From positions 1-12,723 of the forward strand of contig JABURN010000224.1 of NCBI GenBank assembly GCA_014762585.1: a DNA stretch of 12,723 nt, given 5' to 3'. Below, piece by piece: positions 7,312 through 11,514 of the stretch; the first letter of the stretch is position 1; every line of letters starts with the position of its first letter. The notes under the pieces were generated by a model. The model worked only from the letters and a program-made list of their open reading frames with translations, made no database searches and was not told the origin of the DNA. Made by a program: the position numbers and the translations under genes. The DNA comes from Methylophaga sp. GTDB taxonomy: Bacteria > Pseudomonadota > Gammaproteobacteria > Nitrosococcales > Methylophagaceae.

Positions 7312-8265
7312 ATGATTTACAACAGCATTCTCGATACTATCGGCAACACGCCCGTTGTCCGCCTCAATAATATCGCGCCCGACCATGTCGATATGTACGT
7401 CAAGGTCGAATCATTCAACCCGATGGGTTCGGTTAAGGACCGACTCGCCTTTGCGGTCATCGATGATGCTGAAAAGCGTGGGGTGCTCAAACCCGGCCAG
7501 ACTGTCGTGGAAGCGACCTCCGGCAACACCGGTATCGCACTGGCCATGGTCTGCGCTGCCAAGGGTTATCCTTTTGTTGCCACCATGGTGGAAACCTTCT
7601 CGGTAGAACGCCGCAAAATTATGCGCGCCCTGGGTGCCAAGGTCATTCTGACGCCGGCAGCAGAAAAAGGCACAGGTATGGTCAAGAAAGCCGAAGAACT
7701 GGCAGAGAAACATGGCTGGTTTCTGGCGCGTCAATTCGAAAACCCGGCTAATCCGGCTTACCACAGAAACACCACCGGGCCTGAGATTTTGCGGGACTTT
7801 GCCGGCAAGCGCCTCGATTACTGGGTCTCCGGCTGGGGCACCGGCGGTACTTTGACCGGCGCCGGTGAAATGATCAAGCTCGCTCGTCCTGACACCAAGG
7901 TGGTAGCAACTGAGCCCGCTGCCGCTTCATTGCTGGCAGGCGGTGACTGGAACCCGCATAAAATTCAGGGCTGGACCCCCGACTTTGTACCCGATGTATT
8001 GAATCGTGACGTGCATGATGAACTGTATCCCGTCACCGATGAAGAGGCAAAACACTGGGCCTTGCGCCTTGCCAGTGAAGAAGGCATTTTTGTTGGCCTC
8101 TCCTGTGGTGGCACACTGGCGGCAGCGATGAAGGTTGCAGAGAAAGCAGAAAACGGCTCAACCATTCTGGCCATGCTGCCTGATACCGGTGAACGCTATC
8201 TCTCAACTTACCTGTTTGAAGGCATGAATGAAGAATCAGATGACGACTGGCTGGCGAGTCAATAA
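7312..8265 (+). CDS. cysK: Cysteine synthase (O-acetylserine sulfhydrylase, CysK type)
   Basis: This PLP-dependent enzyme makes cysteine from O-acetylserine and sulfide in the cytoplasm. The 317-residue product has the family order: GNTPVVRL (11-18), FNPMGSVKDR with the PLP lysine at residue 42, TSGNTG (69-74) binding the substrate carboxylate, the phosphate-binding GTGGT (176-180), and HKIQGWTPDFVPDVLN (216-231). SCGGT (264-268) keeps the serine that contacts the pyridine nitrogen. The HKIQG segment and the ERYLST ending favour CysK over CysM, although the two are hard to separate by eye. The loop normally written as SSGA or SAGA is SCGG here, and the usual PET.S.ERR is VETFSVERR. It is a single gene 113 bases after the previous one. 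No clear terminator follows, so transcripts may continue into pqqA. Confidence 0.9.
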   Translation: MIYNSILDTIGNTPVVRLNNIAPDHVDMYVKVESFNPMGSVKDRLAFAVIDDAEKRGVLKPGQTVVEATSGNTGIALAMVCAAKGYPFVATMVETFSVERRKIMRALGAKVILTPAAEKGTGMVKKAEELAEKHGWFLARQFENPANPAYHRNTTGPEILRDFAGKRLDYWVSGWGTGGTLTGAGEMIKLARPDTKVVATEPAAASLLAGGDWNPHKIQGWTPDFVPDVLNRDVHDELYPVTDEEAKHWALRLASEEGIFVGLSCGGTLAAAMKVAEKAENGSTILAMLPDTGERYLSTYLFEGMNEESDDDWLASQ

Positions 8266-8279
8266 TCGTATTTTACGAT
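8265..8279. repeat. Small perfect palindrome at the cysK stop
   Basis: ATCGTA (8265-8270) and TACGAT (8274-8279) form a six-base inverted repeat with a TTT loop, starting on the last base of the cysK stop codon. It is AT-rich and has no T run, so it is not a good terminator. It could be an operator half-site pair or chance. Confidence 0.3.
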
Positions 8280-8336
8280 AATATCAATCTGATTTAATCG
8301 TTAGACTTGATTATGAGTCCACGCCATAATTCACTC

Positions 8337-8361
8337 AACGCTTCAGGGAAACCCCGGCGTT
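8337..8361 (+). promoter_or_regulatory. Possible structured leader of pqqA
   Basis: AACGC (8337-8341) pairs with GCGTT (8357-8361), enclosing an inner GGG-AAA-CCC hairpin (8346-8354). The right arm runs into TTTATATAA, 16 bases before the pqqA Shine-Dalgarno site. It could be a leader structure, a weak terminator or attenuator between cysK and pqqA, or chance pairing in a GC-rich patch. The stems are short. Confidence 0.3.
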
Positions 8362-8376
8362 TTATATAACCTTAAC

Positions 8377-8381
8377 AGGAG
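8377..8381 (+). promoter_or_regulatory. Shine-Dalgarno site of pqqA
   Basis: AGGAG is followed by eight bases (AGAGAACC at 8382-8389), then ATG 8390. This strong, well-spaced site before a 23-codon frame is evidence that the frame is translated. Confidence 0.75.
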
Positions 8382-8389
8382 AGAGAACC

Positions 8390-8461
8390 ATGTGGACTAA
8401 ACCAGAATACTCAGATATGCGTTATGGATTTGAAGTGACCATGTACATATGCAACCGCTAG
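8390..8461 (+). CDS. pqqA: PqqA, ribosomal precursor peptide of pyrroloquinoline quinone
   Basis: This 23-residue frame opens [11 protein letters not shown] and ends EVTMYICNR. That matches the PqqA peptides of gammaproteobacteria, which open MW.KP and end EVT.Y..NR. Glu15 and Tyr19 stand in the invariant E-x3-Y arrangement. In the known pathway PqqE (radical SAM, with PqqD) crosslinks these two side chains, and PqqB, PqqC and proteases finish PQQ, the cofactor of periplasmic methanol, alcohol and glucose dehydrogenases. A good Shine-Dalgarno site precedes it and a strong terminator lies 24 bases after its stop. None of pqqB-F follows: the next gene is on the other strand. It is thus a separately transcribed precursor gene, perhaps an extra copy that raises peptide supply. 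Cys21 stands where related peptides usually have Ala or Ser. Confidence 0.93.
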
Positions 8462-8485
8462 TTGCTTTATATCCTTCTCACCCGG

Positions 8486-8512
8486 AAAAAGCCCCTTCCC
8501 GAGGGGCTTTTT
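8486..8512. terminator. Bidirectional terminator between pqqA and the hydrolase gene
   Basis: AAAAAGCCCCT (8486-8496) pairs with AGGGGCTTTTT (8502-8512) around a five-base loop. There are T runs on both strands, so it can end pqqA transcription rightward and hydrolase transcription leftward. The minus-strand stop codon is only five bases away (8518-8520). Confidence 0.92.
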
Positions 8513-8517
8513 CTTTT

Positions 8518-9243
8518 CTAGTTCAAAACATCTGCCAGTGCCAGTGACCAGCAGCAGGTATGGTCGGCGCCCACCACGATATAGCTTTGTACATTGTCCA
8601 GTGTTTTCATATGCGAAAGATACGATGTCAGTACCGAGCCCGGGACGACATCATCGCGTTCGCCGATTAAGTGGATCTGCGGAACGGCTTCCAGCGCTTC
8701 GCTGAAGTTGATGGGGTTGAGTGAACCATCCAGTGGATCAATTTGATTGAAGTCGGTCCAGCGCTTATGGTCCAGATTACCGGCCACGGTGACAAGCAGA
8801 TCCACATCATCACGCACGGCCGCGACAATGCTCGCGACAGTACCGCCACCGGAAAAGCCTATCAGACGAACCTGTTTAGCCTGGTAACGGATTTTCATCG
8901 CCGAAATGGCTCGGTTCATTGAGTGGATCACCTGACCTGAATAGCGGTGAGAGGTCCATACGTCCTTACCACAGGTATTCATTCGATTCGCACGCAGGTA
9001 TTGGCATGGGCGACCAATGTAGACGCTGTTAGCACCGATTTCCTGGGCCAGCTTCAGGGCGACACCGGGCCTGCCATCACCTTCAATAAAAATATTGAGC
9101 ACATCAGCACGGCGCAGCTCCGGCGGCGCAAATCCCATCATGGTATGCACACCACCTGATAATACAACCCGACTCCATGGGATAAAATCGTCCGCCTGGG
9201 CACTGGGGAAGACCAGGGACATGAGTAGCAGGAACCATCTCAT
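8518..9243 (-). CDS. Exported alpha/beta-hydrolase-like protein
   Basis: The 241-residue product begins MRWFLLLMSLVFPSAQADD, a signal peptide with a likely cut after AQA (residue 17). The mature part shows an alpha/beta-hydrolase layout: an early strand and loop (VLNIFIEGDG), a nucleophile elbow GFSGGG with Ser131, an acid strand IGERDDVVP with Asp197, and a terminal GADHTCCW with His228. Paired cysteines in RPCQYL.ANRMNTCGKD suggest a disulfide outside the cytoplasm. Substrate is unknown; an esterase or lipase-like role is plausible. ATG 9243 is chosen because AGAGGTG lies just upstream on this strand. A longer frame starts at 9312 but would bury the signal peptide. The gene is convergent with pqqA across a shared terminator and divergent from the cupin gene. 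Confidence 0.72.
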   Translation of the reverse strand: MRWFLLLMSLVFPSAQADDFIPWSRVVLSGGVHTMMGFAPPELRRADVLNIFIEGDGRPGVALKLAQEIGANSVYIGRPCQYLRANRMNTCGKDVWTSHRYSGQVIHSMNRAISAMKIRYQAKQVRLIGFSGGGTVASIVAAVRDDVDLLVTVAGNLDHKRWTDFNQIDPLDGSLNPINFSEALEAVPQIHLIGERDDVVPGSVLTSYLSHMKTLDNVQSYIVVGADHTCCWSLALADVLN

Positions 9244-9381
9244 AGCGCACCTCTCAGCGAGTTGTGTCATACAAGCTTCTGCATAACTGATGCCAGAATT
9301 TATCAAGCTCATCAGTCAGATAGAAAATCAGATCCGCAGAATTTGATTCTCTTCCGTGCAAAAACCCATTACTATCGGCGC

Positions 9382-10950: not shown

Positions 10951-11514
10951 ATGCAGTTACCCGTCCAAATCACCTTCCGTCAAATGGCACCTTCCGAAGC
11001 CCTCGAGGCAAAAATCCGCGAAAAAGCCGCCGGCCTTGAACAATTCTTTGATCGCATCATGAGCTGCGATGTTATTGTCGAACAGAGTAATCGCAACCAT
11101 AACCAGGGCAATCTGTTTCATGTCCGCATCGACCTGCGTGTGCCCGGCAAGGAACTGGTGGTAAGCCGCGATCCGGTTAAAAACCATGCTCACGAAGACC
11201 CCTATGTGGCTGTACGTGATGCCTTTGAAGCCATGAAGCGTCAGCTCAAATCCTACGCCAGTCAGCAGCGCCGCGAAGTAAAGACGCATGATATCCCACC
11301 CCATGGTCGAATCACTGCGCTGTTTCCGATGGAAGATTACGGACGCATTCTGACCCCGACCGGCCGAGATATCTATTTCCACCGCAATAGTGTGCTTGAT
11401 GCAGACTTTGACAACCTTGAGGAAGGGATGGAAGTCAGGTTCAGTGAAGAAATGGGTGAACAAGGCCCTCAGGCCAGCACGGTGAAACTGGTTGGCAAAC
11501 ACCATGTGGTATAG
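10951..11514 (+). CDS. HPF/RaiA-type ribosome-associated protein with a C-terminal cold-shock-like domain
   Basis: The 187-residue protein joins two domains. Residues 1-105 resemble the ribosome hibernation factor HPF/RaiA: VQITFRQMAPSEALEAKIREKAAGLEQFF, then VIVEQSNRN, VRIDLRVPGKELVVSRDP, and a helix with YVAVRDAFEAMKRQLKSY. Residues 117-184 resemble a cold-shock (OB-fold) domain. HGRITALFPMEDYGRIL stands for the strand that carries KGFGFI in CspA, and GRDIYFHRNSV for DVFVHFS. HPF proteins bind the 30S decoding region and slow translation in stress or stationary phase, and the added domain could bind RNA. Its length differs from long HPF, whose C-terminal dimerisation domain is absent. It is a single gene divergent from a membrane-protein gene, followed by a hairpin. 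Confidence 0.87.
   Translation: MQLPVQITFRQMAPSEALEAKIREKAAGLEQFFDRIMSCDVIVEQSNRNHNQGNLFHVRIDLRVPGKELVVSRDPVKNHAHEDPYVAVRDAFEAMKRQLKSYASQQRREVKTHDIPPHGRITALFPMEDYGRILTPTGRDIYFHRNSVLDADFDNLEEGMEVRFSEEMGEQGPQASTVKLVGKHHVV

Follow-up and report, generated by a model that had tools for sequence, protein, structure and literature searches.

A pqqA copy of Methylophaga with an ahpC-type, putatively OxyR-responsive promoter in place of the operator of its siblings

The short gene at positions 8390-8461 of the DNA analysed here (the window, 12,723 nucleotides, which is the whole of contig C258 in a draft Methylophaga genome) is a genuine pqqA. It is best explained as a member of a dispersed, multi-copy pqqA family of Methylophaga, with a promoter that appears unlike those of its siblings, and we consider it probable that a spare pqqA has here been moved from the switch shared by the family to control by peroxide through OxyR. 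From the sequence we infer OxyR binding, induction of the gene and the use of its peptide for PQQ. The features on which the argument turns are the following, in window coordinates.

7312..8265, plus strand: upstream neighbour, a cysteine synthase gene of the cysK type (TIGR01139, 417.9 bits against a cut-off of 350.95), which marks the site
8264..8307, plus strand: 44-bp ahpC-type, OxyR-like promoter element (20.9 bits with a matrix of ahpC elements, 17.1 bits with a covariance model)
8301..8306, plus strand: predicted -35 box TTAGAC, which falls within the element at its end and keeps the register seen in 18 ahpC promoters
8325..8330, plus strand: predicted -10 box CATAAT, 18 bp after the -35 box
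8377..8381, plus strand: Shine-Dalgarno site AGGAG, from the sequence layout
8390..8461, plus strand: pqqA, 23-residue PqqA precursor peptide, TAG stop included (over the cut-offs of TIGR02107 and PF08042, with three same-place orthologs)
8484..8514, plus strand: intrinsic-terminator-like stem-loop with a 14-pair stem and a T tail
8518..9312, minus strand: convergent neighbour gene, which adjoins the cysteine synthase gene in relatives and marks the site

The original prediction, made from the letters of the window, held that this 23-codon frame carries the PqqA signature, and that reading is borne out by matches to Pfam PF08042 (E 1.2e-9, 38.4 bits, cut-off 21.1) and to TIGR02107 (E 1.7e-12, 46.8 bits, cut-off 20); because both cut-offs are passed, the frame is not due to chance. 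Its translation has Glu15 and Tyr19 in the E-x3-Y spacing, the glutamate and tyrosine of which are the residues cross-linked in PqqA. The gene also has the Shine-Dalgarno site that had been claimed for it and, for the claimed terminator, a terminator-like stem, and the next gene does run in the opposite direction; the product of the latter has no Pfam match at E ≤ 1e-3 and no NCBIfam match at E ≤ 1e-30. Genes of PQQ synthesis, said to be absent from the neighbourhood, were indeed not found, in that none of the 15 window proteins matched a pqq family of NCBIfam (seven proteins at E ≤ 1e-30 and ten at E ≤ 1e-5, two being in both sets), and a pqqD search of the whole genome gave matches on other contigs and none in the window. 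Elsewhere in the window, positions 10951-11511 encode an HPF/YfiA-like ribosome hibernation protein (37.3 bits, just under the cut-off of 40.9) with a C-terminal stretch similar to cold-shock proteins.

The host genome (G000) is a draft of 2.37 Mb, 85.7% complete, and the window cysteine synthase is 95% identical to the protein of Methylophaga thiooxydans DMS010, its best match among the named genomes scanned. Contig C231 of this genome carries pqqA, B, C, D and E, with pqqA in front; PqqB, PqqC and PqqE, as well as PqqD, score over their cut-offs. A pqqA search of the genome returned nine copies over cut-off, the window copy included. The gene had been called an orphan, and it is one by position; by genome it is not, given a pqqABCDE operon and eight other pqqA genes over cut-off. 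The genome search proposed at the outset thus located pqqB, C, D and E elsewhere, together with further pqqA copies. A genome devoid of these enzymes and a frame not kept among relatives would have spoken against the prediction; instead pqqBCDE are in the genome, and three relatives have kept the frame.

Copies of this kind are widespread. At least 38 of 58 whole genomes of relatives have a pqqA over cut-off, and for the genus we listed 117 copies from 24 genomes, two to nine in each, to which further weakly scoring ones may add, and compared the surroundings of each listed copy. The peptides of 101 of the 117 listed copies are identical despite 72 DNA forms, which points to selection on the peptide. 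The sites recur between species, and include the following (listed copies, 24 genomes).

pqq operon: 24 listed copies in 21 of the 24 genomes
Between bioA and ahpCF: 18 of the 24 genomes
Between two-component systems
Behind glutathione reductase: 5 of the 24 genomes
Beside a CbbR-like LysR gene
Window site, behind cysteine synthase: 4 of the 24 genomes (G000, G013, G002, G004)

Further recurrent sites exist besides these, and a PQQ dehydrogenase gene is found no more than about 500 bases from some copies, as in G002, G006 and G009. The copy between bioA and ahpCF (L124:6162-6233, which is G000:C177:10161, and its orthologs) has its own palindrome and terminator and stands ahead of the ahpC promoter. 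Another pqqA lies directly behind a peroxiredoxin-glutathione reductase (peroxiredoxin-gor) pair in G016 (C3), G017 (C10), G018 (C19), G020 (C11) and G021 (C66), and the pair itself has an ahpC-type element in four of these five genomes (not G018); this arrangement may be a second tie of pqqA to peroxide defence. A further copy, at L123:4110-4181 (G000:C218) with counterparts in G013 and G004, sits just upstream of a match to the cspA thermoregulator, and has a changed peptide in G000 and G013.

The promoters of the great majority of these copies share a palindrome, TCAGGA-AAA-TCCTGA (TCAGGAAAATCCTGA). A sequence like TCAGGAAAATCCTGA in at least 12 of 15 bases lies 83-115 nt before the ATG of 108 of the 117 listed pqqA copies, with exact matches at 47 of the 117; 250-nt windows placed at random in these loci, real sites included, reach 12/15 in 106 of 2000 cases. 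The palindrome was derived from the very copies on which it was counted, and a genome-wide search is the more independent test; there, all 10 exact matches listed precede a pqqA (five genomes, G014 not included). Examples of the palindrome in the host genome are G000:C231:368-382 and G000:C242:12078-12092. It is also found beyond the genus: every one of the 11 pqqA copies checked in six genomes of other genera in the family has 12-15 matches to it, against 9 for both copies from the more distant G047. Among 65 aligned promoters that are less than 75% identical, an invariant G and C repeat those of the palindrome exactly 22 bp downstream, which makes a degenerate second copy two turns of the helix further on, and a TAAnAT-like -10 stands at a fixed spacing. 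Palindrome, second copy and -10 would together look like an activator-dependent promoter, and we regard the palindrome as a putative operator dedicated to pqqA, with the two-component regulators next to one of the pqqA sites as first candidates for the protein that reads it.

The nine of 117 listed copies that lack the palindrome comprise the four at the window site, three second members of tandem pairs and two orthologs (G001, G020). In the tandem pairs, at L122:3976-4226 (G000:C181), L129 (G013:C3) and L153 (G008:C3), the operator is found at the first copy only, and the second copy may be read through from the first. At the window copy itself the best match is 11/15 and lies 32 nt before the ATG, outside the usual place.

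Upstream of the window copy stands the ahpC-type element instead, with the tetranucleotides ATCG-N7-CGAT-N7-ATCT-N7-TCGT, overlapping the cysteine synthase stop codon; the recognition layout of OxyR is given as ATAG-N7-CTAT-N7-ATAG-N7-CTAT (PMC5720770). A matrix built from 14 distinct ahpC elements of 18 genomes, with no pqqA sequence in it, gives the four window-site copies the top four places among the 117 listed pqqA upstream regions, at scores of 23.8, 20.9, 19.3 and 7.8 against -15.0 for the fifth; the window copy is second with 20.9 bits, and the G004 copy is the weakest of the four. In all four the element lies 81-82 nt before the ATG, and for each of these regions (full 160 nt) none of 400 dinucleotide shuffles scores as high. 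The core promoter follows the same plan as at ahpC, where a TACAAT or TAGAAT -10 is found at 18-bp spacing in 18 of 18 promoters: a predicted -35 and an 18-bp-spaced -10 are present in all four window-site copies, the -10 of G002 (TAAACT) being a weak match. Compared with the ahpC promoter of the same genome, these copies agree at 26-31 of 44 positions inside the element, 4-12 of 40 upstream and 21-24 of 60 downstream. The likeness thus ends at the edges of the element, as for a binding site, and for the same reason a recent copy of an ahpC promoter is an unlikely source. In G000 and G013 a degenerate pattern has its only exact matches at ahpC and window-site pqqA, a result that is not independent, as the pattern was derived from these same elements.

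Counting matches to the generic OxyR consensus proved not to be a discriminating test. The textbook 16-base consensus is matched at 9/16 in the window and at 9-12 positions at ahpC, and among the 117 listed pqqA upstream regions the best count is 9 in 57, which equal the window, and 10 or 11 in 29. Riboswitch control of the window pqqA was also set aside, since no Rfam family reaches its gathering score in the window, where four weak matches at E ≤ 5 all fall below it. The Rfam scan covered 50 sources, and its sole c-di-GMP-I riboswitch match (L034:1795-1872, in G006) lies some 230 nt ahead of a pqqA but on the other strand; a c-di-GMP riboswitch flanking a pqqA is tabulated for M. nitratireducenticrescens (PMC12530212).

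The ahpC elements were also made into a sequence-only covariance model, which, applied to 24 genomes with 150 first-look candidates scored in each, places the element in a wider setting. At E ≤ 0.05 it returned 47 rows, of which 23 are at ahpC, 13 at dps/chrA, six at peroxiredoxin-gor, three at window-site pqqA and two elsewhere (G008:C5:38714 and G023:C13:76904), such that 19 of the 24 non-ahpC matches are at dps/chrA or peroxiredoxin-gor. The 13 dps/chrA rows represent nine genomes, some gaps holding two elements; in one row (G000:C119) chrA stands at the start of a contig, and this row was counted because it resembles the dps-chrA locus that is intact in G013. The window-site pqqA ranks second in G002 (E 6.6e-5) and is the third locus both in the host genome (17.1 bits, E 0.013) and in G013 (E 0.022), the E-values of the latter two being modest. 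The genome-wide model did not find the G004 window-site element and had no match at E ≤ 0.05 in G001, and katG of the host genome has an E of 0.137.

OxyR classically controls ahpC, dps, gor and katG, and the set formed by ahpC, dps, peroxiredoxin-gor and window-site pqqA looks like an OxyR peroxide regulon. Control of Methylophaga ahpC by OxyR is likewise something that we infer. A candidate regulator is encoded in the host genome at G000:C260:4405-5295 (238 bits against the NCBIfam OxyR cut-off of 329). The OxyR-like proteins have OxyR as their best NCBIfam match, at about 230-243 bits and below that cut-off; the C-x8-C cysteine pair is kept in those of G000, G013 and G014, and in the PDB the G013 protein is best matched by OxyR proteins of other bacteria.

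Comparison of the locus among relatives, also proposed with the original prediction, established that the frame is kept, with same-place orthologs in G013, G002 and G004. The G000 and G013 genes differ in six codons, all synonymously, and each of the six pairs of window-site orthologs differs in 3-8 codons synonymously and in 0-3 nonsynonymously. Both the G000 and the G013 peptide have Tyr for Phe12, and the M. thiooxydans ortholog encodes exactly the commonest peptide of the genus. In seven relatives (L042-L048) there is no pqqA behind the cysteine synthase gene, the sequence there amounting to only 371 nt in L044 and 130 nt in L048; in L042 and L043 cysteine synthase and the convergent gene almost touch. 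The ahpC-type element is absent at the same locus of these seven, within the same 371 and 130 nt for L044 and L048, and as both are missing, gene and element would have been gained or lost together. On gain against loss of the window site the cysteine synthase tree is mostly open, with a single change in 51% of bootstrap trees. The leaders of the four window-site genes (8337-8385 in the window) form predicted hairpins with z of -2.2 to -2.9 and differing sequences. A 5'-UTR hairpin common to all copies was considered and dropped (mean z -0.99 over 73 non-redundant copies, against -0.77 for the upstream control).

That the copy might answer to a signal different from that of the main operon had been suggested at the outset, and this idea now gains specific support from the sequence, in the missing operator and the ahpC-type element. 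In the mechanism that we propose, peroxide would oxidise OxyR, which is predicted to bind the element next to the -35 box, and the oxidised protein would activate the window pqqA promoter. A short mRNA, with a predicted start near 8337 and an end at the 8484-8514 terminator, would be translated to PqqA, which PqqB, C, D and E encoded on C231 would convert to PQQ. Peroxide stress would then increase the supply of precursor, whatever the state of the main pqq switch. A possible benefit of more PQQ under peroxide would be the replacement of damaged quinoprotein cofactor, or scavenging.

Rival accounts of the same locus have to be weighed against this one. The gene could be a plain dosage copy, a redundant pqqA with an ordinary promoter whose likeness to ahpC is without consequence, in keeping with the use of one peptide for each PQQ. 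High copy numbers in the genus (2-9 listed per genome) would suit such a role, as would the statement that PqqA availability is rate-determining in Methylovorus MP688 (PMC11317620, citing Ge 2015). It leaves unexplained, however, the presence of the element at each of the four window-site copies, when the remaining 113 listed regions score far below zero, and the lack here of an operator that 108 of the 117 listed copies have, and we think it rather unlikely. Equally, the element could be real and be read by another regulator common to ahpC, dps and peroxiredoxin-gor, in answer to a signal other than peroxide. The poor fit of the element to the textbook OxyR consensus and the scores of the OxyR-like proteins under the curated cut-off speak for such a regulator; that ahpC, dps, peroxiredoxin-gor and, weakly, katG are the classical OxyR set, that four tetranucleotides with 7-bp spacers are the OxyR layout, and that the genome encodes an OxyR with the cysteine pair all speak against it, and on balance we hold it to be unlikely.

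A purpose of the peptide other than PQQ, for example as a modified peptide or in metal binding, seems to us highly improbable. It would accommodate the change of Phe12 to Tyr in the G000 and G013 copies, and for Methylorubrum PqqA has been suggested as a possible component of an alternative system for lanthanide uptake (PMC11317620). Against it, Glu15, Tyr19 and the remainder of the peptide are kept, and the same-place ortholog of M. thiooxydans is exactly the commonest peptide. Control of a PQQ precursor gene by OxyR is the reading that we favour.

Multiple pqqA copies as such are already known in methylotrophs. Methylophilaceae have 3-12 dispersed copies (PMC4109929), Methylovorus MP688 and a production strain of Hyphomicrobium denitrificans have five each (PMC11317620, PMC9851590), and Methylorubrum extorquens has the orphan genes pqqA2/pqqA3 (PMC11317620). 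These systems resemble Methylophaga in having several short pqqA genes beside one pqqBCDE set, and their copies are differently expressed in the cited work (PMC4109929, PMC11317620, PMC9851590). The Methylophaga copies differ in that they are split by promoter, into an operator class and one peroxide-type site, and a peroxide-type promoter is not mentioned for multi-copy pqqA in the accessible text of those three papers. Within the open-licence literature, so far as its text was accessible, we found no report of an OxyR-linked pqqA, of a palindromic pqqA operator or of a peroxide-type pqqA promoter, and the promoter wiring of the window copy appears to be new. Its element is like OxyR sites in its four tetranucleotides, its 7-bp spacers and its recurrence at ahpC, dps and peroxiredoxin-gor. 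OxyR regulons include ahpCF, dps, katG and gor; the putative target here, unlike those, is a cofactor-precursor gene.

A parallel comes from fermentation. Hyphomicrobium denitrificans strains H4-45 and AE-9 overproduce PQQ under oxidative stress, and feeding of H2O2 raised PQQ production by 16.3% in the mutant AE-9 (PMC10864529). That case differs from the present one in concerning an alphaproteobacterium and an evolved mutant, and neither "pqqA" nor "OxyR" occurs in the main text of the paper as accessible, which is thus without a mechanism. A peroxide-type pqqA promoter would tie PQQ supply to oxidative defence, as this fermentation work hints (PMC10864529).

It is unsettled what keeps several pqqA genes beside a single set of PQQ enzymes in many methylotrophs, and promoter classes that can be read from sequence make the question testable in the cultured M. 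thiooxydans DMS010. More tentatively, the peroxide response of the M. thiooxydans group may include PQQ precursor supply as one of its branches, and in this genus pqqA may spread as small cassettes with exchangeable promoters. If so, a pqqA cassette with an OxyR promoter would provide extra PQQ on exposure to peroxide, protecting or re-equipping quinoprotein dehydrogenases, and cassettes of promoter, gene and terminator would let a single enzyme set answer several signals through its peptide substrate.
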